Source of the DNA: Clostridium sp. CAG:413
Lineage (GTDB): Bacteria > Bacillota > Clostridia > Oscillospirales > Acutalibacteraceae
Assembly: GCA_000431775.1 (NCBI GenBank)
Contig: FR888239.1
Span: forward strand, 1 to 18,289
DNA length: 18,289 bases
Direction of reading: 5' to 3'
Both the position numbers and the translations under genes were made by a program. Of the stretch, positions 2,042-18,289 are shown in pieces (positions within the stretch are counted from its first letter, which is position 1; each line of letters starts with the position of its first letter). The notes under the pieces are model-generated. The model saw only the letters and a program-made list of their open reading frames with translations. It made no database searches and was not told the DNA's origin.

Positions 2042-2190
2042 GTGTTTTTTCATAAAAATACGGAATAATTTGTTTTTTACACTCGGTCGGGCTCTTGAAT
2101 GCCTAAAAGTCGGTCGATTTTACATTGAAACGAAGATTTGCCCCGCCGCTGACAATTACCACTTGCAAACCGGCGATATTTAATGTATTA

Positions 2191-2196: not shown

Positions 2197-2230
2197 GTAG
2201 TCATTCAAAATCGCTAAAAGGAATGTTTTG

Positions 2231-3106: not shown

Positions 3107-3107
3107 T

Positions 3108-4121
3108 TTGAAAATTCTTGTTACGGGCGGCGCCGGTTTCATAGGCTGCAACTTCGTCTATTATATGCTTGATAAGCATCCGGATTATGATATAGTCTGC
3201 CTCGACGCCCTCACATATGCGGGCAATCTCAAGAGCCTTAATAAGGCTATGGAGAATCCGAAATTTAAGTTCGTCAAGGGCAATATTGCCGACAGGGAGC
3301 TTGTTGACAAGCTCTTTGCCGAGGAGAAATTTGATATCGTGGTCAATTTTGCCGCCGAGAGCCATGTTGACAGGTCGATCGAGAATCCGTTTATATTCCT
3401 TGAGACAAACGTCACCGGCACGGCGTGCCTGCTCGACGCGAGCAGACGCCACGGCGTTTCACGCTATCACCAGGTCTCCACCGACGAGGTCTACGGTGAT
3501 CTGCCGCTTGACAGACCTGACCTCTTCTTCACTGAGACGATGAATCTTGTCACCTCAAGCCCGTATTCGGCTTCAAAGGCGTCCGCCGACCTGCTGACCC
3601 TCGCATTCCACAGGACCTACGGCCTGCCCGTGACGATAACCCGCTGCTCAAACAACTACGGCCCCTACCAGTTCCCCGAGAAGCTGATACCGCTCATGAT
3701 AGTCCGCGCTCAGGCGGATGAGAGCCTGCCCGTCTACGGCGAAGGTCTCAATGTGCGCGACTGGCTTTATGTTGAGGATCATTGCAAGGCGATAGATATG
3801 GTCATCCACTCGGGCAGAGTGGGGGAGATATACAATGTCGGCGGCCACAATGAGAAGCGCAATATAGACGTGGTCAAGACGATCCTTGCTGCTCTCTCAA
3901 AGCCGGAGTCGCTGATAACCCATGTCAAGGACAGAGCCGGTCACGACCTGCGCTATGCCATTGACCCGACCAAGATATCAACGGAGCTTGGCTGGCAGCC
4001 CGAGACCTCGTTCGACGTCGGTATCGCCGAGACTATCAAATGGTATCTCGATAACACCGAATGGATGGATGAGATAAAAAGCGGCGAATACGCCGAATAC
4101 AGTCGCAGGATATACGGTTAA
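3108..4121 (+). CDS. rmlB: dTDP-glucose 4,6-dehydratase
   Basis: This NAD-dependent enzyme converts dTDP-glucose to dTDP-4-keto-6-deoxyglucose, the second step of dTDP-rhamnose synthesis for cell-surface polysaccharide. With the TTG start it has 337 residues, close to the family norm. The Rossmann motif TGGAGFIG is at the N-terminus, the substrate-binding STDEVYG carries T125-D126-E127, and the catalytic YSASK gives Y153 and K157. RCSNNYGPYQFPEKLIP is a family signature. I chose TTG at 3108 because it gives the canonical MKILVTGGAGFIG start and has AAAAGGG 8 bases upstream. An in-frame ATG at 3087 would overlap the upstream gene and lacks a ribosome binding site. No rmlA, rmlC or rmlD is present here, so it is an orphan of its pathway within the window. 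Confidence 0.95.
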   Translation: MKILVTGGAGFIGCNFVYYMLDKHPDYDIVCLDALTYAGNLKSLNKAMENPKFKFVKGNIADRELVDKLFAEEKFDIVVNFAAESHVDRSIENPFIFLETNVTGTACLLDASRRHGVSRYHQVSTDEVYGDLPLDRPDLFFTETMNLVTSSPYSASKASADLLTLAFHRTYGLPVTITRCSNNYGPYQFPEKLIPLMIVRAQADESLPVYGEGLNVRDWLYVEDHCKAIDMVIHSGRVGEIYNVGGHNEKRNIDVVKTILAALSKPESLITHVKDRAGHDLRYAIDPTKISTELGWQPETSFDVGIAETIKWYLDNTEWMDEIKSGEYAEYSRRIYG

Positions 4122-4141
4122 ATCTGTTTTAATAAGTTTAT

Positions 4142-4176
4142 GCCCGTGCATACTTCATGTGTGCGCGGGTGTTTTT
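4142..4176 (+). terminator. terminator of the exonuclease-rmlB operon
   Basis: GCCCGTGCATAC and GTGTGCGCGGGT form a fully paired 12-bp stem (some G-T pairs) with a TTCAT loop, followed by GTTTTT. It begins 21 bases after the rmlB stop. Confidence 0.85.
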
Positions 4177-4236
4177 GCATCTTTGAAAACTTGTATTGAA
4201 ATTTATTAACTTTGTGTGAACATTTATATAAATCTC

Positions 4237-4265
4237 TTGACAAAAGTTTGAGATGGTGGTATGAT
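4237..4265 (+). promoter_or_regulatory. promoter of the RHH-clpB operon
   Basis: TTGACA (4237-4242), a 17-base spacer and TATGAT (4260-4265) make a near-perfect sigma-A promoter with an expected start near 4272. The -10 box overlaps an ATG at 4261 that would otherwise look like the gene start. A small inverted repeat CAAA-AG-TTTG (4241-4250) begins at the end of the -35 and could be an operator half-site pair, though it is short. I see no CIRCE (TTAGCACTC-N9-GAGTGCTAA) and no clear CtsR box. Confidence 0.75.
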
Positions 4266-4299
4266 ACAGTCAGAAAAGCAAAAAAAGGAGCTGATACTC

Positions 4300-4947
4300 T
4301 TGAAAAAGACCTTATACAGCCTGATGCTCAGCGACGAGGTCGTGAGAGAGGCGGATCGGCTTGCTCACCAAATGGGCACGAACCGTTCAAATCTGATAAA
4401 CCAGATCCTCGCCGAGTATCTCGGCATGACTACGCCGCAAAGGCGCATAAATGATGTCTTTCAGGCCATTGTCGAGGCCGTGGCACCATATGGGCAGCTT
4501 GTGCCGTTCTTTGCGCCGAATGACCTCACCATGTCGCTCAAAAGCAGCCTTGAGTATAAATACCGCCCCACCGTCAAATACGAGGTGGAGCTTTATGAGA
4601 GCGGGGAGGGTTCGATAGGCGAGCTTTCCGTTATATTCCGCACTCAGAGCGCTGCTCTTATCAGCGATATGACCGATTTCTTCCGCCTTTGGCACAAGAC
4701 GGAGCAGAAATACCTGCCGCGCAGGGGTGTTGTGAACGTCAATTATGCGCTCTATGACAACAAATTCTGCCGCAGCCTTGCCGTGCCGCACAAGGATTTC
4801 ACGCCGCAGGAGCTGGCGGGAGCTATCTCCGCCTATATCGAGCTTTTTGACGAGCTGATGAAGGGCTACCTCTCCGGCAGATATTCGGCAGCGGATATAG
4901 ACCGCCGTTACGGCGAGTATGCCGCGCGCCAAAACATTATTATTTAA
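4300..4947 (+). CDS. ribbon-helix-helix protein with large unknown C-terminal domain
   Basis: A 215-residue protein. Its first 42 residues match a CopG-like ribbon-helix-helix DNA-binding unit: strand YSLMLS (6-11), helix DEVVREADRLAHQMG, then RSNLINQILAEYLG after the TN turn. The remaining 170 residues (about 45-215) form a conserved-looking alpha/beta domain that I do not recognise, with a run of beta strands (KYEVELYESG, GELSVIFR, GVVNVNYALYDN) and a helical C-terminus. TTG at 4300 is chosen as start because AAGGAG lies 9 bases before it; the ATG at 4261 lies inside the -10 box and cannot be on the mRNA. It sits 31 bases ahead of clpB with no terminator between, so it probably shares a transcript and may regulate this operon. 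A dimeric regulator is likely; its signal is unknown. Confidence 0.75.
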   Translation: MKKTLYSLMLSDEVVREADRLAHQMGTNRSNLINQILAEYLGMTTPQRRINDVFQAIVEAVAPYGQLVPFFAPNDLTMSLKSSLEYKYRPTVKYEVELYESGEGSIGELSVIFRTQSAALISDMTDFFRLWHKTEQKYLPRRGVVNVNYALYDNKFCRSLAVPHKDFTPQELAGAISAYIELFDELMKGYLSGRYSAADIDRRYGEYAARQNIII

Positions 4948-4978
4948 GCAACCTATACTAAATTAAGCAGGTGATTTA

Positions 4979-7555
4979 ATGAACACTCAGAACTTCACTC
5001 AAAAAACCATTGAAGCGATCCAGAACGCTCAGAATATCGCGTCCGAGAACGAGAATCAGGCGCTCATGCCCGAGCACCTGCTCTATTCTCTGCTTGACCA
5101 GGACGGCGGCCTTATCCCGTCGCTCTTCGGCAAGATGGGCGTTGACAGCAACGCTGTCCTCGCTGAGCTGGATTCATATATTTCTACTCTTCCCAAGGTT
5201 TCGGGCGGCGATATGTATCTCTCCGCCGAGACCGACCGTATAATCCGCGCCGCCGAGAAAGCGGCAAAGAGCATGAAGGATGAATATGTCTCAGTTGAGC
5301 ATCTGATGCTCGGCATATTCGCCGACATGACCCCGCAGATAAGGAAGATATTCAACGCCCACGGCATCACAAAGAATGCTTTTACCGAGGCTCTCTCCAA
5401 GGTCAAGAGCGGCCCCGTAACGAGCGATAACCCCGAGGGCACTTACGATGCCCTCGCAAAATACGGCACCGACCTTGTCAAGCGTGCCCGCGATAACGAG
5501 CTCGACCCCGTTATCGGCCGTGACACCGAGATAAGAAACGTCATCCGTATTCTTTCGAGAAAGACTAAGAATAACCCCGTCCTGATAGGCGAGCCCGGCG
5601 TAGGTAAAACCGCTATAGCCGAGGGGCTTGCCCAGAGGATAGTCAGGGGAGACGTGCCTGAAGGACTGAAGGATAAGACCGTATTCAGCCTTGATATGGG
5701 CGCTCTTATAGCCGGCGCTAAATACAGAGGCGAGTTTGAAGAGAGGCTGAAGGCCGTCCTTGAGGAGATCAAGAAGTCCGAGGGCAAGATCCTGCTCTTC
5801 ATTGATGAACTTCATACTATAGTCGGCGCGGGTAAAACCGAGGGCAGCATGGACGCAGGCAACCTCCTGAAGCCCATGCTTGCAAGAGGCGAGCTGCACT
5901 GCATCGGTGCCACCACTCTTGACGAATACAGGAAGTATATCGAGAAGGACGCCGCTCTTGAACGTCGTTTCCAGCCCGTTATGGTCAATGAGCCTACGGT
6001 CGAGGATACCATCTCGATACTGAGAGGTCTTAAGGAGCGCTACGAAGTCTATCACGGCGTGCGTATCCACGACAGCGCGCTTGTCGCCGCCGCTACGCTC
6101 TCCGACAGATACATTACCGACCGTTTCCTGCCCGATAAGGCTATTGACCTTGTGGATGAGGCCTGCGCCTCCATCCGCACCGAGATCGATTCTATGCCCT
6201 CCGAGCTTGACGATGTCCGCAGGAGGATAATGCAGCTCGAGATCGAGGAAATGGCTCTTAAAAAGGAGACCGACAAGCTCTCCAAGGAGCGCCTTGAGAA
6301 GCTGGGCGCCGAGCTTGCGGAGAATAAGGATAAATACAACGAGATGAAATCCCGCTGGGATGCCGAGAAGCAGAGCGTTGACGAGGTAAAGCGCATCAAG
6401 TCGGAGATCGAGCAGATGCACGCCGACATCGAGCAGGCTCAGCTTCATTATGAATACGAAAAGGCCGCAAAGCTCAAGTATTACGACCTCCCCGCCCTCG
6501 AGAAGAAGCTCTCGGAGGCTGAGGAGCGCAGCGAGCAGCGCAAGGAAAACACCCTTGTCCATGACACCGTGGATGAGGAGGAGATAGCCGCCATCGTCGC
6601 AAAATGGACTGGTATACCCGTTACCAAGCTGATGGAGGGCGAGCGTGAGAAGCTGCTGCATCTCGATAAGGTCATCCATGAGAGAGTTGTCGGCCAGGAC
6701 GAAGCCGTGCAGAAGGTCACCGAGGCCATCCTGCGCTCCCGCGCGGGTATCTCAGACCCCAACAGACCCATCGGCAGCTTCCTCTTCCTCGGCCCCACGG
6801 GCGTCGGCAAGACGGAGCTTGCAAAGGCTCTGGCGGATTGCCTGTTTGACGACGAACACAATATGGTGCGTATTGATATGACCGAGTATATGGAGAAATA
6901 CTCCGTGTCCCGTCTTATCGGTGCGCCTCCGGGATATGTCGGCTATGACGAGGGCGGTCAGCTCACCGAGGCTGTGCGCCGCAAGCCCTACTCGGTCGTC
7001 CTCTTTGATGAGATCGAGAAGGCTCACCCCGATGTATTCAATATCCTGCTCCAGGTGCTTGACGACGGCCGTATCACCGACAGTCAGGGCAGGACGGTGG
7101 ACTTCAAGAATACCATCATCATCCTGACCTCTAACCTCGGCAGCCAGTATCTGCTCGACGGCATTGACGAGAACGGCAATATCTCGGAGGAAGCAAGGAA
7201 GGGAGTTATGGAGGAGCTGCGCCGCAGCTTCCGCCCCGAATTCCTCAACAGGCTTGACGAGACGATATTCTTCCGCCCGCTTACCAAGGATAACCTGAAC
7301 GGCATTATTGATATCATGCTCGCTCAGCTCAGAAAGCGCCTCGCCGACAGGAGCCTCGGCCTCGAGGTCACCGACAAGGCCAAGGAGCTTATCATCGACC
7401 GCGGTTACGATCCCGTCTACGGCGCAAGACCGCTCCGCAGATATCTGCAAAGCAGCCTTGAAACCCTCGTCGCCCGCAAGATACTCTCAGGCGACATTGA
7501 CGCGGACTCCACCATCACGGTCGACGCCGAGAACGGCGAGCTTGTCTGCAAATAA
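4979..7555 (+). CDS. clpB: ATP-dependent disaggregase ClpB
   Basis: ClpB is a hexameric AAA+ chaperone of the cytosol that threads aggregated proteins through its pore, working with DnaK. The 858 residues match the normal family length. Domain order: Clp N domain (1-145), NBD1 with Walker A GEPGVGKT (204-211), Walker [10 protein letters not shown] (271-279), pore loop KYRGEF and arginine fingers R329/R330; a coiled-coil M domain (about 405-525); then NBD2 with GPTGVGKT (605-612), VVLFDEIE (673-680), pore loop GYVGYDEGG and FLNRLDE (R757-containing arginine finger region). The M domain and absence of an IGF/IGL loop favour ClpB over ClpA/ClpC. AGGTGA lies 4 bases ahead of the ATG. It is the second gene after an unusual RHH protein; no known CtsR or HrcA site is visible, so stress control may differ from the Bacillus pattern. 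Confidence 0.97.
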
Positions 7556-7563
7556 TAATACAG

Positions 7564-7601
7564 TACCCCCTCGGAGTTTCAAGCTCCGAAGGGGTATTTT
7601 G
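7564..7601 (+). terminator. terminator of clpB (possibly bidirectional)
   Basis: A 13-bp stem with one mismatch (TACCCCCTCGGAG at 7564-7576 against CTCCGAAGGGGTA at 7584-7596) ends in TATTTTG. It lies 9 bases after the clpB stop and 7 bases before the convergent minus-strand gene end at 7608, so it can serve both genes. Confidence 0.8.
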
Positions 7602-7607
7602 CTGTGT

Positions 7608-9221
7608 TCAGTTGAATACCGTGCCGTCCTTGAGGACATCCTCGGGTGAGGAGTCGGCGGCGTAGTAGCGGAAGGCTGCGCCCTCGGCTCGTAAAGCGAT
7701 GATATATTTGCCGTCATCCGTTTTGAGTGTCAGCCTTACGCCGTCAAAGCGGTAGCTGCCGATGCCGAGATAGCTGCTGAGAAACCCGGGTGAAAACTCA
7801 AATTTGCCGTCCTTATCAAGCTTGAACGACGGTGTTGAATTTACCTTGCCGTCGTTGACAGTATCGCTGTAATAGGTCTTGTCGTATATAATCCCACCCT
7901 CGGTGACCTCACAGCCCGCAAGGGCGTCGATGAATTTTTCCACCTCTTTTGGTGAAACCACCCTATGCGAGTAGGACTCCTTGAAGTATCCGCACTCATA
8001 CATTTCGGCGAGATCCTTGCCGAAGCAGAAGAGAGTGTCCGTGCCGTTGACGTGGTTTATGCAGACGGTCAGATATGACGGGCGGTTCTCGGGGGTGGAG
8101 CCGTCGATGGGGCTTTTGTGTATCCTGATTTTTTTGAGAGCGTCGGTCGCCGATTTGACGGCTGCTTCGTCGGAGACGGTGAAGGTCTTGCCTTCATAGG
8201 CGACGGTTATGCTCGAGATATCGTCAAAGGCGCCGTCCGTGCCGGCAAAGTCGGTCATTTTGTCAAGGCGTACCCCTGCGGGGTCGGTCAGCAGGCATAC
8301 AGCCGCTGCAACGCAAACGACAACTGCGGATATTACGAGCCAAAATGCGGGTTTCTTGTAATTCAAAATATTTTTCACCCTTTCTTTAACTCCGACCTCC
8401 CCGAAGGCTATCGGGCAGGCGGCTGCGGTGCGCCTCGGGGCGCTGCAATCGAGCAGTGCCTGCGAATAGGCGCATTTTTTATCGCTTCCGAGGTCTTTTA
8501 TCACCCGTTCGTCGCATGCGATCTCAATGTCACGGCAAAGCAGGGCGTATGAGAGCCAACAGAGCGGGTTGAACCAATGCAGCGCAAGCGCGGCAAAGGC
8601 AGCGGGCTTCAGCAGGTGGTCTTTGCGTGCGAGATGCGCTCTCTCATGGGCGAGCACAAGCTCACGTTTTTCGCCGTCCATATCAGACGGCAGATAAATC
8701 TTCGGCCTGATAACGCCGAGAATGAAAGGGGAGCTTACCGAGTCGCAAAGCAGGATGTTGCCCTCGAGCGGTGCGGTCATTGCGACCTTTTTACGCAGCC
8801 TGACGTAGCTGACAGCGGCGCAGATAAGAGTTGCGACAACGCCTGCAAGCCATATCACGGCGAGGATCTCGGTCAAATTCACCGTTGACGCGGCAGCTTG
8901 CGGCGCATTTGTCACGGCGGGCAGGCTTGGGCTCGGGCTCGGGCTCGGCACGGCAGCGGGCGAAATAACGCTCTCGGCGGTCCTTGCAATCACCCGATCG
9001 GTCGGGCTGAAGCTTGGCACAAGGCTGAAAATGCTCCTGAATGAGAGCGGGCAAAGCAGCCGCACGGCGGTCAGCGCCCACATAAGGCAGATAAGCGAGC
9101 GCGGGGCTTTTTTGAGCAGCGCCCGCAGCAGCGCTACGGCAAGCATCATCCATGTTGCCGCCATGCTCATGTCGAGCACCTTGATGAATACCTCGGTAAG
9201 CGAATTCATAAAGCCGCCCAT
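7608..9221 (-). CDS. M56 (BlaR1-like) membrane zinc metallopeptidase
   Basis: A 537-residue membrane sensor-protease of the BlaR1/MecR1 peptidase family, which in known systems cleaves or inactivates a BlaI-type repressor upon a signal. Hydrophobic segments are near residues 21-36, 44-60, 118-140 and 293-311. The zinc motif HERAH is at 192-196, followed by HWFNPLCWLSY and DIEIACDERVI, where the third ligand glutamate lies. A proline/serine linker (PSPSPSPS, about 92-99) joins the first helices to the protease part. The outside C-terminal part (about 315-537) is not a penicillin-binding domain; it contains a small beta domain (YRFDGVRLTLKTDDGKYIIAL). It therefore probably senses something other than beta-lactams directly. 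A perfect AAGGAGGTG precedes the ATG, and the start overlaps the BlaI stop (TAATG), indicating coupled translation. Confidence 0.88.
   Translation of the reverse strand: MGGFMNSLTEVFIKVLDMSMAATWMMLAVALLRALLKKAPRSLICLMWALTAVRLLCPLSFRSIFSLVPSFSPTDRVIARTAESVISPAAVPSPSPSPSLPAVTNAPQAAASTVNLTEILAVIWLAGVVATLICAAVSYVRLRKKVAMTAPLEGNILLCDSVSSPFILGVIRPKIYLPSDMDGEKRELVLAHERAHLARKDHLLKPAAFAALALHWFNPLCWLSYALLCRDIEIACDERVIKDLGSDKKCAYSQALLDCSAPRRTAAACPIAFGEVGVKERVKNILNYKKPAFWLVISAVVVCVAAAVCLLTDPAGVRLDKMTDFAGTDGAFDDISSITVAYEGKTFTVSDEAAVKSATDALKKIRIHKSPIDGSTPENRPSYLTVCINHVNGTDTLFCFGKDLAEMYECGYFKESYSHRVVSPKEVEKFIDALAGCEVTEGGIIYDKTYYSDTVNDGKVNSTPSFKLDKDGKFEFSPGFLSSYLGIGSYRFDGVRLTLKTDDGKYIIALRAEGAAFRYYAADSSPEDVLKDGTVFN
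8929..8946 (-). repeat. GGGCTC x3 short tandem repeat
   Basis: Three exact tandem GGGCTC units lie inside the M56 gene and encode part of its Pro-Ser linker. The length keeps the reading frame if whole units are gained or lost, so the linker could vary in length between strains. Confidence 0.7.
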
Positions 9222-9586
9222 TACCGCACCTCCTTCGCCTCGTCTATCATGCGCCGGATGGTGTCAATCTCTTTGTCGGTCAACTTTTTGCGGCTTGAGA
9301 ATGCCGCTATAAAAGCGGGCAGCGAGCCGCCAAATACTTCGTCCACGAATTTTGCGCTCTGCATACCGTGGAGCTGCTCCTTGGTTATCAAAACGGTGAC
9401 GGTGCTGTCCTCGGTCTTGAATATGCCGTTGTCGCAGAATTTTCTGAGTGCGGAGTAGACGGTGGGGCGCTTCCAATTCAGCTGAGCGGCGCAGCGCTTG
9501 ACAAGCTCGCCCGTGGATATCGGGGCGTTGCTCCAGACAATGTCGGCGAATTTCTCGTCAACCGCGCCGAGCTTTAATTCGTTCAT
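9221..9586 (-). CDS. BlaI/MecI/CopY-family repressor
   Basis: A 121-residue winged-helix repressor. The region from about residue 8 to 68 carries the family pattern: DEKFADIVWSNAPISTGELVKR, then a recognition helix in WKRPTVYSALRKF, then the wing (GIFKTEDSTVTVLIT). The C-terminal helices serve dimerisation and, in known relatives, contain the site cut by the partner protease. ATG at 9586 is chosen: CAGGAGA lies 7 bases before it, whereas an in-frame ATG at 9622 sits inside the promoter. The gene ends in the TAATG overlap with the M56 protease gene, the standard arrangement for a repressor/sensor pair. A palindrome at its own promoter suggests autoregulation. Confidence 0.92.
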   Translation of the reverse strand: MNELKLGAVDEKFADIVWSNAPISTGELVKRCAAQLNWKRPTVYSALRKFCDNGIFKTEDSTVTVLITKEQLHGMQSAKFVDEVFGGSLPAFIAAFSSRKKLTDKEIDTIRRMIDEAKEVR

Positions 9587-9602
9587 ATTATCGTCTCCTG
9601 AC

Positions 9603-9655
9603 TGTCGGTAGCCTACCGACAATTATAGTTTACAGCCTACCGACACTTTTGTCAA
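9603..9655 (-). promoter_or_regulatory. BlaI-M56 promoter with operator palindrome
   Basis: On the minus strand TTGACA (9650-9655) is followed by TAAACT at 17 bases (9627-9632), or by an overlapping TATAAT (9622-9627) at 22 bases; one of these is the -10. Directly after it lies a perfect palindrome, TGTCGGTAG-N-CTACCGACA (9603-9621). The 12-base core AGCCTACCGACA is repeated at 9634-9645 between -35 and -10, 24 bases away. Two such sites straddling the -10 box are what a dimeric BlaI repressor would use. The sequence differs from the TACA-N2-TGTA core familiar from MecI/BlaI/CopY. Confidence 0.8.
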
Positions 9656-9666
9656 GCCCTTTTTGC

Positions 9667-9703
9667 AAAAAAATACAGCGCCTCTTTTGTGAAGAAGCGC
9701 TGT
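9667..9703 (-). terminator. terminator of the TetR-ABC-hydrolase operon
   Basis: A 12-bp stem (9675-9686 with 9692-9703, core ACAGCGC/GCGCTGT, one G-T pair) is followed on the minus strand by TATTTTTTT. It begins 8 bases after the hydrolase stop and separates that operon from the BlaI promoter. Confidence 0.88.
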
Positions 9704-9710
9704 AAGCGGT

Positions 9711-10406
9711 TTAATTGCGTGAGAGCGTCTCATGCTCCCAATTTTTCATGAATTCAAGCTGCTCCGGGGTGTGAAGCCAATGCTCGCCGCCCGGCATTAC
9801 GGTCAGCGTGCAGGGGTTTGCGGCAATGAAGCCGTCGATGACCCTGCGGGGGATAGTCTCGTCGCATTTGCCGTAGAGGATATCCGTCACGCCCTCGGCG
9901 GAAACGGGGTGGCTGCGGGCATAGCAGAGATAATCCCATGAGAGGGTTTGACCGAATTCGGTCGGTATCTCTTCCTCGGCCTCAAGGCTCTCCTCGCTCA
10001 CGCCCGCAAGCTGCATCAGGCCGCTTATCATATCGACCATGTCGAGCAGGGGAGAGACGAGCAGGCGGCGTTCGAGCCGCTCGCCCTTGAATGCGAGCAG
10101 AGAGAACCACGAGCCGATGCTGGTGGCTCTGAGAGATATGCTCTGCCAATTCGCCTTTGCGTATTGCATTACTTTTTGCAGCTCGGGTACGACCTCCCAA
10201 GGCAGCAGCTTTACGCCGTCCTGCCTGCCGTCGTGCTCGGGCAGGTCGATAGCGAGCACCTGCCAACCGAGCGGATTTGCGACCTCGGCGAAGCGCTCCG
10301 CCTCCTCCTTGCAGCCGAATTGACCGTGAACAAAGAGGAATACTTTATCGGATCTTTTGCCGTAAAGCGCTGCGGGGATACCGCTGATATCAAAAAATTC
10401 TTTCAT
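9711..10406 (-). CDS. alpha/beta hydrolase
   Basis: A 231-residue cytosolic alpha/beta-hydrolase. The likely oxyanion-hole motif is VHGQFG (H27-G28); the nucleophile elbow is ATSIGS (S96, with Ala-Thr before the serine instead of the usual G-x); D182 in YGKCDETIP and H209 in GGEHW complete the catalytic triad. The family includes esterases, lipases and acyl-peptide hydrolases; no substrate can be read from the sequence. It starts 6 bases after the ABC permease stop with no clear ribosome binding site, so it is the last gene of the TetR-ABC operon and probably translated by coupling. A role in modifying or hydrolysing the compound exported by the ABC pair is an inference. Confidence 0.85.
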   Translation of the reverse strand: MKEFFDISGIPAALYGKRSDKVFLFVHGQFGCKEEAERFAEVANPLGWQVLAIDLPEHDGRQDGVKLLPWEVVPELQKVMQYAKANWQSISLRATSIGSWFSLLAFKGERLERRLLVSPLLDMVDMISGLMQLAGVSEESLEAEEEIPTEFGQTLSWDYLCYARSHPVSAEGVTDILYGKCDETIPRRVIDGFIAANPCTLTVMPGGEHWLHTPEQLEFMKNWEHETLSRN

Positions 10407-10412
10407 AATTCA

Positions 10413-12020
10413 TTAGTTGCAGCTGAGATTTGAGAATATCTCAGCGCCTTTCTTTTTGCACCATGCAAAGAGTACGGCGCAGATTATCAAGCTGAGCGCC
10501 GCTATGCAGCCGAGGTAGGCTGCGGCGCCGAGGGGGTATGCGAAGAAGAAAAACGGGAGTGCGATGACTGCGCTGTATGCCCAGCCGCCGAACATGGCGA
10601 ACATAACGCTGCCGCCCTGCTTTATCGGGGTTATCTCGTTTGTCCAGGTGAGATTCGGCATTTTAAGACCGAGGACGAGGCCGAATACCGCGGCGAGGAG
10701 CGTGTATATTGCGATGATCGCAATAGTTATGAGTGATTCGGCAAGGGTCATCTTCAGCGTGAAAACGCCGCAGAGTGTGCAGAAGAGGGCGGGTACGCCC
10801 GAGAGAAGTATCTGCACCTTGAGCTTCGCCTTGAGCACCTGCCAAGCGTTGACAGGCAGTGACTGTGCGAGCCATATCGACTTGCCCTCGAGCGATATCG
10901 AGGGGGCTGTGATGTCTATCGCTGAGATCATGGCGCATATCGCGGCGCACAGAAGCACGGGCACGGTGTCGGGCTGCTCGACGAACGCAGCTTTAAGCAC
11001 TTCGCCGAGATAATTGCCCTTGATGAGCAGCGCAACGCCGCCGATGAACAGGAAGACAATGCCGAGGCCGCAGTTGAGCATATAGCTCGGGCTGGCAGTG
11101 AAGCGGCGCATCTCTTTGCCGAAGAGGGCGGAGGATACGCTCTTGACCTTTTCGGCTTTTTCTTTGTAAACCGTCTTTGTAACTTTGGCGGTCGATGTGG
11201 CTATGCCGATGAAGCTGCGTGAGAGCAGGAACCACAGCAGAGCCGTGAGCACAGCGACTATGACGGTCACGACGACGGCTGCCGTTATATAACCCTCGCC
11301 CATGCGGCCGAGGAAATAGAGCGGGTATGCCGAAGCCTTAATCTTTGCACCGTAGGTTGAGACGTTGACGATAAGATTCTGGATAATATCCTGAGCCTTG
11401 AAGGATATAAAGTAGTATACGCCGAAGAACAACAGCGAGACAAGCACGGTGATAAAGCTCTTATTCTTGAGCTTGAGGCTTACCTTGGCTACCACCCAGC
11501 CGAGCAGGCATGAGAGCAGCATGACTATCACCGAGACGAGCAGCGCAAGCACCAGTGAGCAGACCACTGCGGCTGCGCCCGGGGCGGCGATGACCCAATA
11601 GACTATTATTGCGGGCAGCATCACGACCTCGGAATACATAAGACCGATCAGATAAACGCCCAGCAGGCGGGAAATCATGATGTAGCGCACGGGTATCGGC
11701 ATTGAGAGCAGCAGGTCGTTATCCTTTGAGAGATAAAGCCCGGAGTAGGTGTTGAATACGCTGCCGAATGCGCCGAGGGCTATGGCGATAAGGCTCATTA
11801 TCGTGAAGTAGAGCCAGCCCGCTCCCGCAATGACCATGGGCTCGCACATGGATATCGACAGATAGGTGAATATGCCGCCAAGCACGCCGACCATGAGTAT
11901 GACGTATATGGCGAAGAACATAATCGTCGATGCTTTTGAGCGCTTTTTATTTTTCTTTGCGTCGTAGAAATAGCTGCGGAATATCTCCGTCATTTGCTTG
12001 TGAAGCAGAGTTTTGAGCAT
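10413..12020 (-). CDS. ABC transporter permease
   Basis: A 535-residue polytopic membrane protein with about twelve hydrophobic segments in two halves, with a charged cytosolic stretch around residues 285-310 (TAKVTKTVYKEKAEKVKS). It resembles the large ABC-2-like exporter permeases found beside single-domain ATPases in Firmicutes. The N-terminus is cytosolic and basic (DAKKNKKRSK). Its ATG overlaps the ATPase stop in a TAATG, so the pair is translationally coupled and should assemble as an exporter. The substrate is unknown: candidates are lipids, peptides or drugs, given the TetR control. Confidence 0.88.
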   Translation of the reverse strand: MLKTLLHKQMTEIFRSYFYDAKKNKKRSKASTIMFFAIYVILMVGVLGGIFTYLSISMCEPMVIAGAGWLYFTIMSLIAIALGAFGSVFNTYSGLYLSKDNDLLLSMPIPVRYIMISRLLGVYLIGLMYSEVVMLPAIIVYWVIAAPGAAAVVCSLVLALLVSVIVMLLSCLLGWVVAKVSLKLKNKSFITVLVSLLFFGVYYFISFKAQDIIQNLIVNVSTYGAKIKASAYPLYFLGRMGEGYITAAVVVTVIVAVLTALLWFLLSRSFIGIATSTAKVTKTVYKEKAEKVKSVSSALFGKEMRRFTASPSYMLNCGLGIVFLFIGGVALLIKGNYLGEVLKAAFVEQPDTVPVLLCAAICAMISAIDITAPSISLEGKSIWLAQSLPVNAWQVLKAKLKVQILLSGVPALFCTLCGVFTLKMTLAESLITIAIIAIYTLLAAVFGLVLGLKMPNLTWTNEITPIKQGGSVMFAMFGGWAYSAVIALPFFFFAYPLGAAAYLGCIAALSLIICAVLFAWCKKKGAEIFSNLSCN

Positions 12021-12727
12021 TATTCTCCCTCCAATTCAAGGAATACTTCCTCGAGCGAATCGTCGCCCTTGACCTCCTCCATGGTGCCGGAGCGGATGAG
12101 CTTGCCCGCCTTGATTATGGCAACCTTGTCGCAGAGCTTCTCGGCGACCTCAAGCACATGGGTGGAGAAGAATATTGCGCCGCCGTTGTCACAGACCTCG
12201 CGCATCATGCCCTTGAGCAGGTGGGCTGCCTTGGGGTCTAGGCCGACAAACGGCTCATCCATGATGATGAGCCTCGGCTCGTGTATCCATGCCGAGATGA
12301 TGGCGAGTTTTTGCTTCATGCCGTGTGAATAGGAGGCTATCGGCTGAGCAAGGTCGGCGGTCAGCTCAAATATGTCGGCGTATTTGTGTATGCGCTCCAT
12401 TCTCTCCGCCGAGCCAATGCCGAATATATCTGCGATGAAGTTCAGATACTTGATGCCCGTCATGTATTCATACAGGTCGGGGTTATCGGGGATATAGGCT
12501 ATCTGCTTTTTGCAGGTGAGGGGGTCGGCCTTGATGGAGGTGCCGCATACGGTTATTTCGCCCTCGTCAAACTTCTGAATGCCCACAACGGATTTGAGTG
12601 TGGTGGTCTTGCCGGCGCCGTTGTGGCCGATGAAGCCGTAGATCTCGCCCGGGGCGATGTGCAGCGAGAGGTCGTCAACGGCCTTTTTCTCGCCGAATGT
12701 TTTTGTAAGGTGTTCGATTTTAAGCAT
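12020..12727 (-). CDS. ABC transporter ATP-binding protein
   Basis: A 235-residue ABC ATPase that powers the adjacent permease. Walker A is GHNGAGKTT (34-42), the signature is a SHGMKQK variant of LSGGQ (134-140), Walker B is LIIMDEP (153-159), the D-loop is GLD and the switch histidine is H190 (FSTH). GGAGA lies 7 bases before the ATG. It starts 18 bases after the tetR stop. The SHGMKQK signature is common in exporter-type ATPases of ABC-2 systems. Confidence 0.95.
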   Translation of the reverse strand: MLKIEHLTKTFGEKKAVDDLSLHIAPGEIYGFIGHNGAGKTTTLKSVVGIQKFDEGEITVCGTSIKADPLTCKKQIAYIPDNPDLYEYMTGIKYLNFIADIFGIGSAERMERIHKYADIFELTADLAQPIASYSHGMKQKLAIISAWIHEPRLIIMDEPFVGLDPKAAHLLKGMMREVCDNGGAIFFSTHVLEVAEKLCDKVAIIKAGKLIRSGTMEEVKGDDSLEEVFLELEGE

Positions 12728-12745
12728 GATAATTCTCCAATCGGT

Positions 12746-13390
12746 TTAGTGATTTTCGTCGTTTCTGTAGCCCTCAATGACATCGGAAAAGACCTTAAAG
12801 CGGTCATAATTATTCTCTGTGAAGCCGGGTATCTGCTTGATGGCTCTGCACATGGCGACGCTGAAGCCGGTGATTATGTTGCTTATCTCCTCGTCGGAGT
12901 AGGGGCAGCCGCCCGTGACTATCAGCGTTGCGATGCTGTGGCCGACAAGGCACATATTGCGGAAATACCGCTCGGCTTCGGCGGCGGTCATGTCATATAT
13001 CCGCATTATCGGCTCCCTCAGCTGCTCGAAGGAATGGGTCGTTGACTCGATCGCGCCGTTTTTGCCGTCATGTGTCGGGGTGAGGAACAGCAGCCTGTAA
13101 AGCTCCGGCTCCTCCTTTGCGAATTTGATATGCTGCATTCCGAAGCCGTAGAACGGTATCTTCATGCTGAGCCCTATCGCCGTGTAGCGGTCATACAGCG
13201 CCATGGCGGCGGCGCGGACCTCTCTCTTTGCCTCCTCCATCGTGTTGAAGCAGGTGAATACCGGCTGAGTCGATACCCCCAGCTCGTCGGCGATAGCCCT
13301 TGCGGTGAGGGCGGATATGCCCTTGGCTTTAACAACGCTCAGAGCCGCCTGAACCATCTCGTCTCTCGTGAATTTGACTCTCGGCGCCAT
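12746..13390 (-). CDS. TetR/AcrR-family transcriptional regulator
   Basis: A 214-residue TetR regulator, normally a dimer that leaves DNA when a small molecule binds. The helix-turn-helix lies at about residues 9-55: TRDEMVQAALSVVKAKGISALTARAIADELGVSTQPVF. The C-terminal ligand-binding half (60-214) is helical and not assignable to a ligand. AGAGGA lies about 8 bases before the ATG. It is first in the operon tetR-ATPase-permease-hydrolase, whose promoter carries a 24-bp palindrome, so it likely represses itself and the exporter. Confidence 0.92.
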   Translation of the reverse strand: MAPRVKFTRDEMVQAALSVVKAKGISALTARAIADELGVSTQPVFTCFNTMEEAKREVRAAAMALYDRYTAIGLSMKIPFYGFGMQHIKFAKEEPELYRLLFLTPTHDGKNGAIESTTHSFEQLREPIMRIYDMTAAEAERYFRNMCLVGHSIATLIVTGGCPYSDEEISNIITGFSVAMCRAIKQIPGFTENNYDRFKVFSDVIEGYRNDENH

Positions 13391-13428
13391 TTCATCATCC
13401 TCTCTGCGAGAATTAACATGAATTCATT

Positions 13429-13452
13429 GATATATATCGAGCGATATATATC
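13429..13452 (-). promoter_or_regulatory. TetR operator palindrome
   Basis: Perfect inverted repeat: arms GATATATATCG (13429-13439) and CGATATATATC (13442-13452) around a 2-base centre. It lies just downstream of the predicted transcript start and 39 bases before the tetR start, where a bound dimer would block transcription. Confidence 0.8.
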
Positions 13453-13463
13453 TAACGGTGTTT

Positions 13464-13492
13464 ATTATACAATATTCGAGCCGCTGTGTCAA
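13464..13492 (-). promoter_or_regulatory. promoter of the TetR-ABC-hydrolase operon
   Basis: On the minus strand a fully consensus TTGACA (13487-13492), exactly 17 bases, and TATAAT (13464-13469). Such a strong promoter immediately ahead of an operator is typical of a repressed, inducible operon. Confidence 0.85.
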
Positions 13493-13524
13493 TAGTATTC
13501 TTAAACTGTAACTGTTTTGTAATA

Positions 13525-13564
13525 AAAGAACTCCGAGGCCGGCATTTTATTGCAGACCTCGGAG
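13525..13564 (-). terminator. terminator of the ligase-condensation-carrier operon
   Basis: Stem CTCCGAGG/CCTCGGAG (13557-13564 and 13531-13538) with an 18-base loop that contains an inner GCA/TGC pair, followed on the minus strand by TTCTTTTATT. It begins 16 bases after the phosphopantetheinyl transferase stop. Confidence 0.75.
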
Positions 13565-13580
13565 AGATAATTATTGAGTT

Positions 13581-14168
13581 TTAACTTTCTTTTTCGCATA
13601 CGGAGCAGATATAGCCGTCCGCAATGCTTATGAATTTGCAGGTGAAGCCCGGCTCGGAGCAGCGGATATCGTCGCCGTTCACGGTGAATGTGACGCTCTT
13701 AATATCCGAGCCTATCCCCGTGCCGACGCACTTGAAATACGCCTCCTTCAGAGTCCATATCTCAAAGAGCCGCCGTGGGTCGCTACCGATGTATTCAAGC
13801 TCCTCTGCCGACGCAAAGCGCTTAGCCACATCGGGGCGTATCTCGCGCAGGGCTTCGATATCAATGCCGACGGGCTTGCCCGATACGGCGCATACGGCGA
13901 TATTTCCGCTGTGGCTGAGGTTGAATTCTATGCCGTCCGTCGTCGGCTTGCCGTGCTCGTTTTTGCCGAATTTCACCTCGGCGGGGGATAGACCCAGAGC
14001 CTCGGCCGCTGCGGCGCGGCAAAGATGGTCGGCGGCGATACGCAGCCTTCGCTTATCCGCCTGCTGCATACGGTTTATCTCGCGTTGCTTATTTTCGTCC
14101 GCCTCGAGCAGCCACTCGGTGAGCAATTCGTCGCTTATTTCGGCGGAGTTTATGAATGTTATCTTCAC
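13581..14168 (-). CDS. 4'-phosphopantetheinyl transferase (Sfp type)
   Basis: Transfers the phosphopantetheine arm from coenzyme A to the serine of a carrier protein, here presumably the one encoded just upstream. The 195-residue form fits the Sfp family in size. Motifs: GKP (73-75), NLSHSG (83-88), the metal-binding GIDIE (D103, E105) and WTLKEAYFK (E142, K146) followed by GTGI. The start is GTG at 14168: it directly follows the carrier protein TGA stop with one base between, and longer open frame upstream is only the carrier gene read in another frame. No strong Shine-Dalgarno, so translation is probably coupled to the carrier gene. Placement in the operon suggests a dedicated activator. 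Confidence 0.9.
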   Translation of the reverse strand: MKITFINSAEISDELLTEWLLEADENKQREINRMQQADKRRLRIAADHLCRAAAAEALGLSPAEVKFGKNEHGKPTTDGIEFNLSHSGNIAVCAVSGKPVGIDIEALREIRPDVAKRFASAEELEYIGSDPRRLFEIWTLKEAYFKCVGTGIGSDIKSVTFTVNGDDIRCSEPGFTCKFISIADGYICSVCEKES

Positions 14169-14169
14169 C

Positions 14170-14391
14170 TCAGCAGTTCGCCCCGATGTATGCGGCGAGC
14201 TTGCCGACGGTGTCGCATCTCCTGAAATCATCAGCCCCGATCTTAACGCCGAATTCGTCATAGAGATCGTCGCCGAAGCAAACAAGGTCAAACGACGACA
14301 TTCCCAGCTCGCTCTTGATGCGGGTGTCGGGGGTTATCTCATCGTCGGGCTCAACATAGTTAAGGATGATATCGACAATTTTCTCAAGCAT
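14170..14391 (-). CDS. discrete acyl/peptidyl carrier protein
   Basis: A 73-residue acidic four-helix carrier protein. The attachment serine is S33 in LGMSSFDLV; the usual D-S-L is S-S-F, so the aspartate normally before the serine is missing, as in some secondary-metabolism carriers. Helix II continues as DLVCFGDDLYDEFGVKI and the C-terminal helix is DTVGKLAAYIG. GAGGT lies about 8 bases before the ATG. The start overlaps the condensation gene stop by 8 bases and the stop is one base before the transferase GTG, so the three are translated together. It probably holds the acyl or aminoacyl intermediate for the condensation-type enzyme; it is not the housekeeping AcpP, which normally sits with fatty-acid genes. 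Confidence 0.9.
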   Translation of the reverse strand: MLEKIVDIILNYVEPDDEITPDTRIKSELGMSSFDLVCFGDDLYDEFGVKIGADDFRRCDTVGKLAAYIGANC

Positions 14392-15832
14392 ATATATCTA
14401 CCTCGTCTTCCTTTATTTCATCAAGAATCTCACCGACGGTGATGCCCGTGTTCCGAGTGCCGAGCAGTATGGATTTTATCAGCTTGTTGTGGAATATGCC
14501 AAGCTCGTTGATGGGGTTGTTTTTTGTCCTGTATTCGTAGTTGAAGTCAAGCCCTGCGTCGTTGCTGCGATGCATGACGGTCAGATAAAGATTCTGCATT
14601 GAAGCATCGTTGTTATACCAGAAACCTCGACTTGAGTCACGCATTTTTTCATCAAGGCAAGGCACGGGCATATAGGGCTGGTATGAGAAGCTCATGCTCT
14701 CATAAACATCGTGCGTTTCGTTGCCCATTGCCTTGTGGCGGACAGCGATAGCCTCAAGCGAGCTGAGGTTTGAATGCTCAAAGACCTCGTTTTGCGCCTG
14801 CTCAATGACCTTGAGCGCCTCAAGGAAGGTCATCTCGGGCTTCACGATGCTCCTCATTGAGAAGAAGTGCATCCTCATGCCGCCGGATTTTTTTTCGAGC
14901 AGCGTAGCTCTGCGGTTGACCATCAGTTTGAAGGAAACGTCCTCCTCGTTGTCGTTGAAGGAGGAGAGGGCGCAGCGCAGACCCATCATCATTACACAGG
15001 GAACGGAAAGGCCTTTTTCGGCGCAGAGGGACATTATCTTATCAGATGTCTCCTTGCTCAGGCTGTATCTGAGAGTTTTGGAGGAGGGGTCGTCGCCGTC
15101 GTGGACGGAGGCGATACGAAGGTCGGGCTTATTCTCCCTGATTCTCTGCTCTATGAGCCTGCTCGGGCGAACATAATCGGTGTATATCGCCTCGGGGCGG
15201 TCGGTTATCGTGCTGACCCAATAGTCAATATCCTCGTCGTGGCGGTCGGATTCGGCATAGGCGAATTCCTTATCAAGGCACTCGAAATACGAACGCATCG
15301 GTTTCGGATAGGGCTTGCCGTATTTCTTGCTCAGGTATATCGCCATTATGTCGCTGATGAGCATTTTTGACGAATAGCCGTCAAAGCCGAGGTGGTGCAG
15401 CTTCAAATAAATGCCGTTATAATCATTCTCAAGATGAATTATCTTTATCTGATGCAGAGGTGCGTCTGCAAATGTGTCGATGAGCGAATGCCCGCGCTCC
15501 TTGATGAATTCGTGCGCCTCATCCCACGGCATATTTGAGAGATCCTCTTCCTCGACCTCAATGCCCGCTTCATCCGCAAGGTATTGAACGACCTTAAAGA
15601 GAGGGTGCTTCGCAAAGCGCAGGCGCATAACGTCGCAGCGGTCGATCGCCTCAAGAACGGCCTCCTTCATCACTTTACTGTCAAATTCACCTTGGAAATA
15701 GTAGCCCGTGCAGATATTCAGCACCGGCACATGGTTGCCGTATTGGATAGAAAGATAAAGCATGAGCTGTTGCGCCGGGGTGAGCGGATAGGATTCCACC
15801 GTCCTGCCGTCGGGCAAGGTATATTCCAACAT
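14384..15832 (-). CDS. stand-alone condensation-domain (HHxxxDG) acyltransferase
   Basis: A 482-residue free-standing member of the condensation/acyltransferase superfamily of non-ribosomal peptide synthetases, PapA5 and similar enzymes. The C1-like motif YPLTPAQQLMLY is at 15-26 and the active-site HHLGFDG (HHxxxDG) at 146-152, with H147 the likely base. The two-lobe length and later motifs (LVNRRA, SFSYQPYM) fit one C domain with nothing fused. It would join a carrier-bound acyl group to an amine (amide) or a hydroxyl (ester). GGAGG lies 7 bases before the ATG; the ligase stop is 34 bases upstream. Substrates cannot be read from the sequence. No thioesterase, reductase, second adenylation domain or regulator is fused or adjacent. 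Confidence 0.88.
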   Translation of the reverse strand: MLEYTLPDGRTVESYPLTPAQQLMLYLSIQYGNHVPVLNICTGYYFQGEFDSKVMKEAVLEAIDRCDVMRLRFAKHPLFKVVQYLADEAGIEVEEEDLSNMPWDEAHEFIKERGHSLIDTFADAPLHQIKIIHLENDYNGIYLKLHHLGFDGYSSKMLISDIMAIYLSKKYGKPYPKPMRSYFECLDKEFAYAESDRHDEDIDYWVSTITDRPEAIYTDYVRPSRLIEQRIRENKPDLRIASVHDGDDPSSKTLRYSLSKETSDKIMSLCAEKGLSVPCVMMMGLRCALSSFNDNEEDVSFKLMVNRRATLLEKKSGGMRMHFFSMRSIVKPEMTFLEALKVIEQAQNEVFEHSNLSSLEAIAVRHKAMGNETHDVYESMSFSYQPYMPVPCLDEKMRDSSRGFWYNNDASMQNLYLTVMHRSNDAGLDFNYEYRTKNNPINELGIFHNKLIKSILLGTRNTGITVGEILDEIKEDEVDIYA

Positions 15833-15866
15833 ATGTATTCCTCCGATTTATAAAAATATAATAGCT

Positions 15867-17441
15867 TTAATACTCTATTTTAACCGCGGTGCGTTTTATC
15901 TTGCCCGTCGTGGTCTTCTCAAACGGCTTGTCACGCAGGCGGATCTCGGCTATCCTGCGCTCCTCCGGCTCGCTATCGTTGAGCTGCTGTGCCTTCGCCT
16001 CAAGGTAGCCCTTGATATCGTCAATGCCGGCGGCGGATGCATATTCGGCGTCGGGGAATATCTCGGCAACTATCCTGTCCTTATCGCCGTAAACCACTAT
16101 CTCTTTGATGACCTTTTCATCGGCGAATTTATTCTCCAGCATCTCGGGCGATACGTTTTCGCCGTTTGAGAGGATTATCAGATTCTTGAGCCTGCCCGTG
16201 ACATAGATGTGGTCGCTCGAGGTTATCCTGCCGAGGTCGCCGGTCTTGAGGTAGCCGTCCTCGGTGAATACTTTTGCAGTTTCCTCGGGCTTTTTGTAGT
16301 AGCCCATCATCACCGAGCTGCCCTTGACCTGTATTTCGCCGTCAACTATCCTCACGTCGCCGATGCTTCGCAGTATCTTGCCGCTGGAGTCCTTGCATTC
16401 GTCGCCGAAATCCGCCGTCGATATCTTCGGGCTGACCTCGGTCATGCCGTAGCCCTGGCGCAGCATGATACCGTGTTTCTCATAATCGGCTACAAGTCCC
16501 TTGCCGAGGGCCGCTCCGCCGACGGCTATCCATTTGAAATTCTCGCCGAATACCAGCTCGGCAGCCTGCCTGTCGGTCAACTCGGGGTACTTCTTGTGGA
16601 GCATATGCACCTTTTTGATAAGTGTGTCGCATATCATCGGCACGGCTCTCATCGTGGTGGGCTTGAATGTCGCAAGGCTCCTGCCGATATTGCTTATCTC
16701 ACCGTTGAGGCATACGGTGATGCCGTCAAGCAGGGGCTTGAAATAATCGCAGGAGATGCAGAATATATGATGCATCGGCAGCACAGAGAGCATCACGTCG
16801 TTAGGGTCGAGCGCAAGCTCGGTATAAGTGACGTTTGATATCAGATTTCTTGACGAGAGCATTACTCCCTTGCGTACCCCCGTTGTGCCTGAGGTGTAGA
16901 TTATGGCGGCGCAGTCGTCGGGGTCAAGCTCGACCTCTGAGAGAGTGGCGTATTCGGAGCCCTCGCCGTATTCTGCATAGATCGAGGCGAAATGCTCGGC
17001 GTCGCCCATATTTACAACCGTCTTGAGCTGCGGGCATTTCTTGGCTATCTCCTTGGCTCTCTCGTCAAAATCCGCCTCATAAAACAGAGCTTCAACGTCG
17101 CCGTCGGCAAAAAGCTCGCACGCCTCATTGACCGAGATATTGGGCGCAAACGGCACAAAGACGTTGCCGCTCACGAGCGTGCCCGTCAGGGCGGTGATAT
17201 ATTCATAGGTGGTCCTGCCTATGACGGCTATATGCATCCTGCGGGGGCAGATCGAGCGGATGTAGCGGCTCAGCGCAAGGCTGTTTGACCTCAGCTCGCT
17301 AAAGCTCTTCTCCGTTATCCGGTCTCCTTCAAGATATTTGATAAAGGGCTTGTCGCCGTATCTCTCGGCGGCAAGGTCGATAAGGTCGCGCACGGTGTTG
17401 ACCTTTGCGTAATATTCCAGTCTGTTTTGCTCAGAAGCCAT
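15867..17441 (-). CDS. AMP-forming acyl ligase (acyl-CoA synthetase/adenylation family)
   Basis: A 524-residue ANL-superfamily enzyme that forms an acyl-adenylate and passes it to a thiol, here probably the phosphopantetheine of the carrier protein, or CoA. Core motifs are complete: YTSGTTGVRKG (A3, 182-192), LPMHHIF (A4 region), YGMTE (A5, 331-335), LKTGDLG (A7, 398-404), GRLKNLI (A8 hinge) and KTTTGKIKRT with catalytic K514 (A10). The LPMHHIF segment and overall length are more like long-chain acyl-CoA synthetases than amino-acid adenylation domains, so the substrate is more likely a carboxylic or fatty acid; this is inference. GGAGG lies 7 bases before the ATG. First gene of the operon. 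Confidence 0.9.
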   Translation of the reverse strand: MASEQNRLEYYAKVNTVRDLIDLAAERYGDKPFIKYLEGDRITEKSFSELRSNSLALSRYIRSICPRRMHIAVIGRTTYEYITALTGTLVSGNVFVPFAPNISVNEACELFADGDVEALFYEADFDERAKEIAKKCPQLKTVVNMGDAEHFASIYAEYGEGSEYATLSEVELDPDDCAAIIYTSGTTGVRKGVMLSSRNLISNVTYTELALDPNDVMLSVLPMHHIFCISCDYFKPLLDGITVCLNGEISNIGRSLATFKPTTMRAVPMICDTLIKKVHMLHKKYPELTDRQAAELVFGENFKWIAVGGAALGKGLVADYEKHGIMLRQGYGMTEVSPKISTADFGDECKDSSGKILRSIGDVRIVDGEIQVKGSSVMMGYYKKPEETAKVFTEDGYLKTGDLGRITSSDHIYVTGRLKNLIILSNGENVSPEMLENKFADEKVIKEIVVYGDKDRIVAEIFPDAEYASAAGIDDIKGYLEAKAQQLNDSEPEERRIAEIRLRDKPFEKTTTGKIKRTAVKIEY

Positions 17442-17474
17442 CTTTTGTCCTCCGTGGATTTTTTTGATAGGATG

Positions 17475-17504
17475 AATATAGCACTTTAGGCGAGAAAGTG
17501 TAAA
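17475..17504 (-). promoter_or_regulatory. promoter of the ligase-condensation-carrier operon with inverted repeat
   Basis: On the minus strand TTTACA (17499-17504), 18 bases, and TATATT (17475-17480), about 34 bases before the ATG. Between the two boxes lies an inverted repeat, CACTTT (17482-17487) and AAAGTG (17495-17500), with a 7-base spacer. Its position between -35 and -10 is right for a repressor site. Confidence 0.6.
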
Positions 17505-17545
17505 TATGCAATTACTTCATTTGTCTGAAGAAACCGATAAAATCA

Positions 17546-17600
17546 TATAAAAAGTGCCCGGTTTGTTAGACATTATTGAATATTGTCTGACAAATCGGGC
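17546..17600 (-). terminator. terminator of the small membrane-protein gene
   Basis: A 17-bp stem (17556-17572 with 17584-17600) around an 11-base loop, followed on the minus strand by ACTTTTTATATG. On the minus strand two of the pairs are A-C mismatches, while on the plus strand they are G-T pairs, but only the minus strand has the T-run. It starts 12 bases after the stop at 17612. Confidence 0.7.
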
Positions 17601-17611
17601 GGAGTTTGAGC

Positions 17612-17863
17612 TTATTCGGCGTTGTGCTCCCGCTGCTTTGAGAGGTATTCCGAGCCGAGAGTGCCCGCGCATACGAGCACCCCGAGCGGCCTCGTAGCGG
17701 CGAGCAGCTTCTCACTCATGTCAACGCAGGGGTAGTAGTCGAGCAGCCTGCCTGCCCCGAAGTAGAGGAAGGCGGACGCAGCCACCGCCGCTGCGGTCAG
17801 CAGCCCGCCGATGATAAGTATCCGCCTCGCGGGGCGGTGAAGCTCTGACAGTATCTTTTTCAT
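17612..17863 (-). CDS. small membrane protein, function unknown
   Basis: An 83-residue protein with a basic N-terminus (MKKILSELHRPARR), one clear membrane helix (about 16-41, ILIIGGLLTAAAVAASAFLYF) and a weaker second hydrophobic stretch (about 55-68, PLGVLVCAGTLG), ending in a charged tail (KQREHNAE). It resembles no family I know. ATG at 17863 is chosen because GGAGG lies 7 bases before it; a longer open frame to 17911 runs through the promoter. It has its own promoter and terminator, so it is a single-gene unit and not part of the flanking biosynthetic operon. It is divergent from nrdR. Confidence 0.75.
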   Translation of the reverse strand: MKKILSELHRPARRILIIGGLLTAAAVAASAFLYFGAGRLLDYYPCVDMSEKLLAATRPLGVLVCAGTLGSEYLSKQREHNAE

Positions 17864-17881
17864 TGTGACACCTCCGATATG

Positions 17882-17911
17882 ATTATACTTCAAGGCGGCG
17901 GTGCGCTTCAA
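17882..17911 (-). promoter_or_regulatory. promoter of the small membrane-protein gene
   Basis: TTGAAG (17906-17911), 18 bases and TATAAT (17882-17887) on the minus strand; the predicted start lies about 12 bases before the ATG, just ahead of the GGAGG. Confidence 0.6.
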
Positions 17912-17954
17912 TTCAAAAATTTTGCCAGCAATGGGTCGAATTATAAATATGCCC

Positions 17955-17983
17955 TTGAAAAACCGTTAGATTTTTGATATACT
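17955..17983 (+). promoter_or_regulatory. promoter of nrdR
   Basis: TTGAAA (17955-17960), 17 bases, TATACT (17978-17983); predicted start near 17990, followed by AAAGGAG at 18001-18007. Confidence 0.65.
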
Positions 17984-18017
17984 GAAAAAAGACAAAGCTC
18001 AAAGGAGTGTTATTGCC

Positions 18018-18289
18018 ATGAAATGTCCGTTTTGTTCCTGCGAAGAGAGCAAGGTTATAGATTCCCGCCCCACCGATGAGGGCGAGCGCATCCGCCGCCG
18101 CCGTGAATGCATCAACTGCGGCAAGAGATTCACCACCTATGAGGTCATCGAGAGCGTGCCCGTCATCGTAGTCAAAAAGGATCGCTCAAGAGAGGTCTTT
18201 GACCGCAACAAGCTCTTCAACGGTATGCTCAGGGCGTGCGAGAAGCGCCCCGTGGCACTTGAGGATATTGAGAAGTCGGTCGATTATAT
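18018..18289 (+). CDS. nrdR: transcriptional repressor NrdR (3' end beyond window)
   Basis: NrdR senses ATP/dATP and represses ribonucleotide reductase genes. Ninety codons are visible and the gene runs off the window; the full protein is usually about 150 residues. The N-terminal zinc ribbon is complete (C3, C6, C31, C34 in MKCPFC and CINCGKRF), with the DNA-binding RRRRE stretch between, then the start of the ATP cone ([29 protein letters not shown]). AAAGGAG lies 10 bases before the ATG. No NrdR box is evident at its own promoter. Confidence 0.95.

Follow-up and report, generated by a model that had tools for sequence, protein, structure and literature searches.

Four adjacent open reading frames (ORFs) on the minus strand of contig FR888239.1 from Clostridium sp. 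CAG:413 encode, in order of transcription, a ligase, a condensation protein, a carrier and a phosphopantetheinyl transferase (PPTase), and raise the question of what product such a set could make. The window, that is, the whole stretch of DNA analysed, comprises the 18,289 nucleotides of positions 1 to 18,289 of this contig. The operon is very likely a fatty acid amide (FAA, or N-acyl amide) pathway of the kind formed by OaaA, OaaACP and OaaC, the three named proteins of the OAA cluster of Coprococcus eutactus (PMC13142362), with the addition of a PPTase of its own. The first-pass annotation of the window had described activities like those of nonribosomal peptide synthetases (NRPSs) as discrete proteins in one unit, and this description was borne out: the coordinates and strand of the four ORFs agree, each ORF is separate and single-domain, and the Pfam matches are far above chance.

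15867-17441, minus strand: acyl-AMP ligase (adenylating enzyme), 524 amino acids; PF00501 6.8e-55, PF23562 6.3e-8
14384-15832, minus strand: stand-alone condensation enzyme of FAA (OaaC) type, 482 amino acids; PF00668 1.8e-35
14170-14391, minus strand: discrete acyl carrier protein, 73 amino acids; PF00550 7.3e-10
13581-14168, minus strand: Sfp-type 4'-phosphopantetheinyl transferase, 195 amino acids, GTG start; PF01648 9.6e-16, PF22624 4.3e-7

The tight spacing described earlier also agrees with the coordinates: a 34-base gap separates the ligase and condensation genes, the condensation and carrier genes overlap by 8 bases, and a 1-base gap separates the carrier and PPTase genes.

Relationship of the condensation protein to OaaC

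When the sequence of the condensation protein was searched against solved structures, PDB entry 12kh matched residues 14-471 at 5.1e-69, which is 58 orders of magnitude ahead of the next chain (9.1e-11); a 19-row family profile matched the same entry at 2.9e-105 and the next one at 3.6e-20. PDB 12KH is OaaC, a stand-alone condensation enzyme for which an autoinhibitory homodimer has been described (PMC13142362). The two proteins are homologous over their length with 32% identity, and have an insertion in common. A database search returned 236 related proteins at E up to 1e-3, of which the 120 listed were taken for the analyses; P0001 is the window protein's own cluster. The condensation alignments exclude P0102, in which an aminotransferase half (PF00155/PF12897) is followed by one with 98% identity to the window's condensation protein; it is probably an assembly chimera.

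The first-pass annotation had named the absence of an intact active site as a point that would tell against its reading. The alignment shows an intact one: the motif is HHLGFDG (residues 146-152), and its second histidine (H147) and aspartate (D151) are kept in 120 of 120 aligned rows, OaaC included, just as the corresponding residues are more than 99% conserved in the published FAA set (PMC13142362). OaaC has DHRLMDS at this place. The last residue of the motif is glycine in the window protein; across the 119 family rows it is glycine in 94, alanine in 25 and serine in none, while the published set has serine in 42%, alanine in 36% and glycine in 17%, with DHxxxDS said to occur "frequently" (PMC13142362). 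The window motif therefore ends in a minority state of the published set and is not of OaaC's own DHxxxDS form.

Of the 58 rows of a tree, 18 (OaaC, the window protein and 16 of its relatives) lie on one side of a branch supported at 100/100, together with none of the 40 other rows, a small comparison set of domain hits from five plasmid records and one Actinospica genome (2 of 42 hits were dropped as copies of L001). The next row to the FAA-type group is one starter-like domain of a Bacillus plasmid (98/95), and FAA condensation domains adjoin starter domains in the published analysis as well (PMC13142362). This Bacillus domain, the comparison domain nearest to the FAA family (141 bits), is the N-terminal condensation domain of a Bacillus amyloliquefaciens plasmid record (L011, approximately 12001-13215), in a stretch that carries no listed gene. 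The gene order of this record (dacB, MATE, ggt) is reminiscent of the plipastatin/fengycin locus.

The insertion comprises about 20 residues (219-240 of the window protein) and aligns without gaps to OaaC, in which an insertion helix is formed by residues 214-224 (PMC13142362); the predicted model of the window protein has a helix at 225-233 within it. The insertion is 22 residues long in OaaC and at least 20 in 119 of 119 family rows, compared with at most 11 (median 4) in 38 NRPS domains, the number left after two more hits were dropped as second hits of one domain; an insertion of at least 18 residues was found in none of these 38. Starter condensation domains of lipopeptide NRPSs, RzmA (7c1l) for example, differ from the window protein in having no such insertion, among the domains compared, and also in residing within larger synthetases, where they acylate carrier-bound amino acids. 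OaaC matches 71 of 134 family-conserved positions and the best NRPS domain 42; when only the 91 of these that are rare in NRPS domains are counted, the figures are 41 for OaaC and 19 for the best NRPS domain, but the 91 were selected as rare in the same NRPS domains, and so the comparison over 134 positions is the fairer one. The predicted monomer of the condensation protein (pLDDT 87.6) matched condensation domains in general when used in a fold search, and OaaC was not among the 50 rows listed in either fold-search list (structure library to 2026-04-08); the search with this model speaks neither for nor against assignment to the FAA type.

The proposed pathway and its acceptor

FAA synthesis by a stand-alone condensation enzyme working with a ligase and an acyl carrier protein has been reported from gut Clostridia (PMC13142362, describing Chang et al. 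2021, Nat Microbiol). Among the papers that a literature search returned, PMC13142362 is the one with an abstract on this pathway. In it, the acyl carrier protein receives a fatty acid from the free-standing ligase, and the acyl group is coupled by the condensation enzyme to a free amine (PMC13142362), which releases the product in the condensation step (PMC13142362, Fig. 1 legend). Compared by description, these clusters resemble the window operon in consisting of discrete NRPS-like proteins that fuse fatty acids with small amines, and the OAA pathway of C. eutactus resembles it in that ligase, carrier and stand-alone condensation enzyme are distinct proteins and the set has no thioesterase. 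The PPTase is a difference, being part of the window operon but not one of the three OAA proteins named in PMC13142362.

The closest sequence matches of the ligase are acyl-CoA ligases for fatty acids and related compounds rather than amino acid adenylation domains, in agreement with the leaning toward fatty or carboxylic acids noted at first pass. Among NCBIfam models, a long-chain-fatty-acid-CoA ligase subfamily gives the top score (218 bits, under the cut-off of 476); the ligase scores 114 with the amino acid adenylation model (cut-off 317) and lies below the cut-off of every NCBIfam model listed. The solved structures closest to it are those of 4-coumarate-CoA ligases (2.6e-30). Catalytic-looking stretches are invariant across 14 aligned relatives (e.g. 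S184-G188, G330-E335, D402 and K514). The predicted role of the ligase is to activate a carboxylic acid, fatty or related, and to load the carrier with it.

The top PDB matches of the carrier are acyl carrier proteins (1.2e-7), and its matches to NCBIfam acyl carrier protein models are all under cut-off; the second serine of LGMSS, residue 33 of the frame, is likely the site of phosphopantetheine attachment, as read by eye. The PPTase, for which the ORF list gives a longer frame with a TTG start from 14291, matches Sfp (1qr0) at 9.6e-16 over residues 26-191, has GIDIE and WTLKEAYFK stretches, and is predicted to turn the carrier into its holo form.

These parts suggest the following scheme. 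The PPTase would attach phosphopantetheine to the carrier serine, and the ligase would use ATP to activate a fatty acid, which it would attach to the holo-carrier. With the acyl-carrier bound by the condensation enzyme and H147 acting as catalytic histidine, a free small amine would attack the thioester, and the N-acyl amide would be released in this same step, with no need of a thioesterase. An earlier observation was that the set has no thioesterase, reductase or second ligase. This lack is what an OAA-type pathway predicts, because the amine releases the product during condensation; it applies to the four-gene set, whereas the window does contain an alpha/beta hydrolase gene (9711-10406) in a separate operon. 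There is good support for the view that the parts charge the carrier with an acyl group for transfer to a small acceptor, and an N-acyl product, proposed at first pass as plausible, gains support by analogy with OaaC, the characterised relative that points to an amine as the acceptor and a fatty acid as the donor. The operon is real and probably functional as an FAA pathway.

The same machinery might instead serve another acceptor, such as an alcohol, an amino acid or an amino lipid, yielding an O-acyl or N-acyl amino acid product. The motif unlike that of OaaC and the sharing of only about one third of residues would permit this, and 50 of the 91 family-specific positions differ from OaaC, so that the acceptor pocket may differ too. 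However, the closest characterised relative takes a free amine, and FAA enzymes exclude amino acids (PMC13142362). A different acceptor is therefore considered unlikely, and a free amine is preferred.

The first-pass annotation knew of no characterised system with this minimal layout, and had named a database match to a described cluster as grounds for abandoning that claim. The claim is refuted, because a pathway of ligase, acyl carrier protein and stand-alone condensation enzyme has been published for gut Clostridia (PMC13142362) and the window condensation protein matches its described member OaaC. The layout is thus already described, and the differences from OaaC are variations within a known kind of pathway. 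A bolder proposal can be offered only tentatively, and is doubtful: that the window represents a separate, uncharacterised FAA branch (the 236 relatives at E up to 1e-3, with roughly 30% identity to OaaC, a canonical HHxxxDG motif and a PPTase of their own) in which fatty acids are joined to an acceptor new to the pathway, so that uncultured Clostridia would make host-active acyl conjugates of a new class.

If the proposed reaction holds, the operon would be a further source of bacterial N-acyl amides, a type of product reported to act on human G protein-coupled receptors (PMC13142362, describing Chang et al. 2021). Its branch has an active site unlike that of the one solved structure, OaaC, and comparison of the two would probe how the two site types, DHxxxDS and HHxxxDG, bear on the choice of acceptor; the four-gene set, self-contained because it includes a PPTase, should lend itself to easy reconstitution. 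The interest is moderate, as the pathway is medically interesting but the layout has been described.

Linkage and distribution of the genes

Conserved synteny had been suggested as a check on the operon, and its absence beyond close relatives as a point against it; linkage reaching farther than that was found, by an indirect comparison, for the ligase and condensation genes, the pair that the comparison covers. When the longest contigs of the 120 listed condensation clusters were compared with those of the 120 listed ligase clusters, with shifted sizes as a control, 14 contigs of exactly equal size were shared, whereas the 120 shifts gave 0.66 on average and never more than 4. Both members carry the same source label in 14 of 14 pairs. 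Therefore, many relatives, at about 44-66% identity and down to 44-54%, appear to have the ligase and condensation genes together on one contig, as judged indirectly from equal longest-contig sizes.

The condensation cluster has 416 member sequences and the ligase cluster 805, so neither is rare among sequenced samples. A search of genome contigs with the single condensation protein matched 13 stretches, of which one was confirmed, a distant NRPS-like locus of Actinospica (19% identity). A plasmid search returned 172 records, all below 60% identity, the 20 listed being at 18-25%. A search of viral contigs with the condensation alignment found no relative (55 stretches, none confirmed), and a phage search for condensation relatives gave no match.

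Boundaries of the operon and neighbouring genes

The features that bound the operon and the unit downstream of it are as follows.

17504-17475, minus strand: promoter-like site upstream of the ligase gene; TTTACA, 18 nt, TATATT; 10/12; TG precedes the second hexamer
13520-13572, minus strand: intrinsic terminator hairpin 3' of the PPTase gene; fold -22.6 kcal/mol, z -6.57
13492-13464, minus strand: promoter-like site of the downstream operon (9711-13390); 12/12
12746-13390, minus strand: TetR-type regulator, first gene of the separate downstream operon
12020-12727, minus strand: ABC ATPase, downstream operon
10413-12020, minus strand: large ABC-type permease, downstream operon
9711-10406, minus strand: alpha/beta hydrolase; weak Pfam match (1.8e-3, below cut-off), serine elbow ATSIG

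A promoter had been placed at 17475-17504, and a promoter-like site is indeed present there, consistent with its being the promoter of the operon; it is weak evidence because the scan of the region gave 11 such sites where 4.5 were expected. The terminator, earlier placed at 13525-13564, was confirmed by folding of 13520-13572: none of 200 shuffled sequences was equally stable, and a T-rich tail follows the hairpin. A simple terminator scan, which considers one simple stem with a loop of 3-8 bases, did not return this hairpin (2 sites, versus 5.4 in shuffles).

The TetR, ABC and hydrolase genes are a unit apart from the four-gene operon, because the terminator and a 12/12 promoter lie between. 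It might nevertheless be supposed that the cluster extends into this unit, for export of the product or for editing of the carrier by a type II thioesterase, since the genes are on the same strand, directly downstream, and include an ABC ATPase, a permease and an alpha/beta hydrolase with a serine elbow. Besides the intervening terminator and promoter, a lack of detected linkage argues against such an extension: the hydrolase relatives (119 distinct sizes; 120 listed of 1293) share no longest-contig size with the condensation or ligase relatives. The extended cluster is accordingly thought quite improbable. The hydrolase was also considered as the missing thioesterase, which would be possible by fold class, and was set aside, as it belongs to a separate operon and has no detected linkage; a PDB search with it returned no relative below E 0.5.

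In vibriobactin synthesis, the stand-alone condensation enzyme VibH acts on a free amine, and the ligase VibE, the carrier VibB and the PPTase VibD are separate. That the window set makes an aryl-amide siderophore in the manner of VibE/VibB/VibH/VibD, or an acyl-primed starter for a larger NRPS or polyketide synthase (PKS) elsewhere in the genome, is highly improbable: VibH (1l5a) does match the condensation protein (6.6e-8) and the nearest NRPS relatives are starter-type domains, but the match to OaaC (12kh, 5.1e-69) is far better, the Vib set has an aryl donor and a siderophore context, and no NRPS or PKS gene was seen within the window.

Beyond the downstream operon, a BlaI-type repressor (PF03965) and BlaR1-type M56 peptidase (PF05569) pair lies at 7608-9622 on the minus strand, with no beta-lactamase gene seen beside it among the proteins scanned. 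On the other side of the four-gene operon, the start of an nrdR gene (PF22811, PF03477; 18018-18287, plus strand) is divergent from it, and a small ORF without a family match (17612-17863, minus strand) lies between the two.
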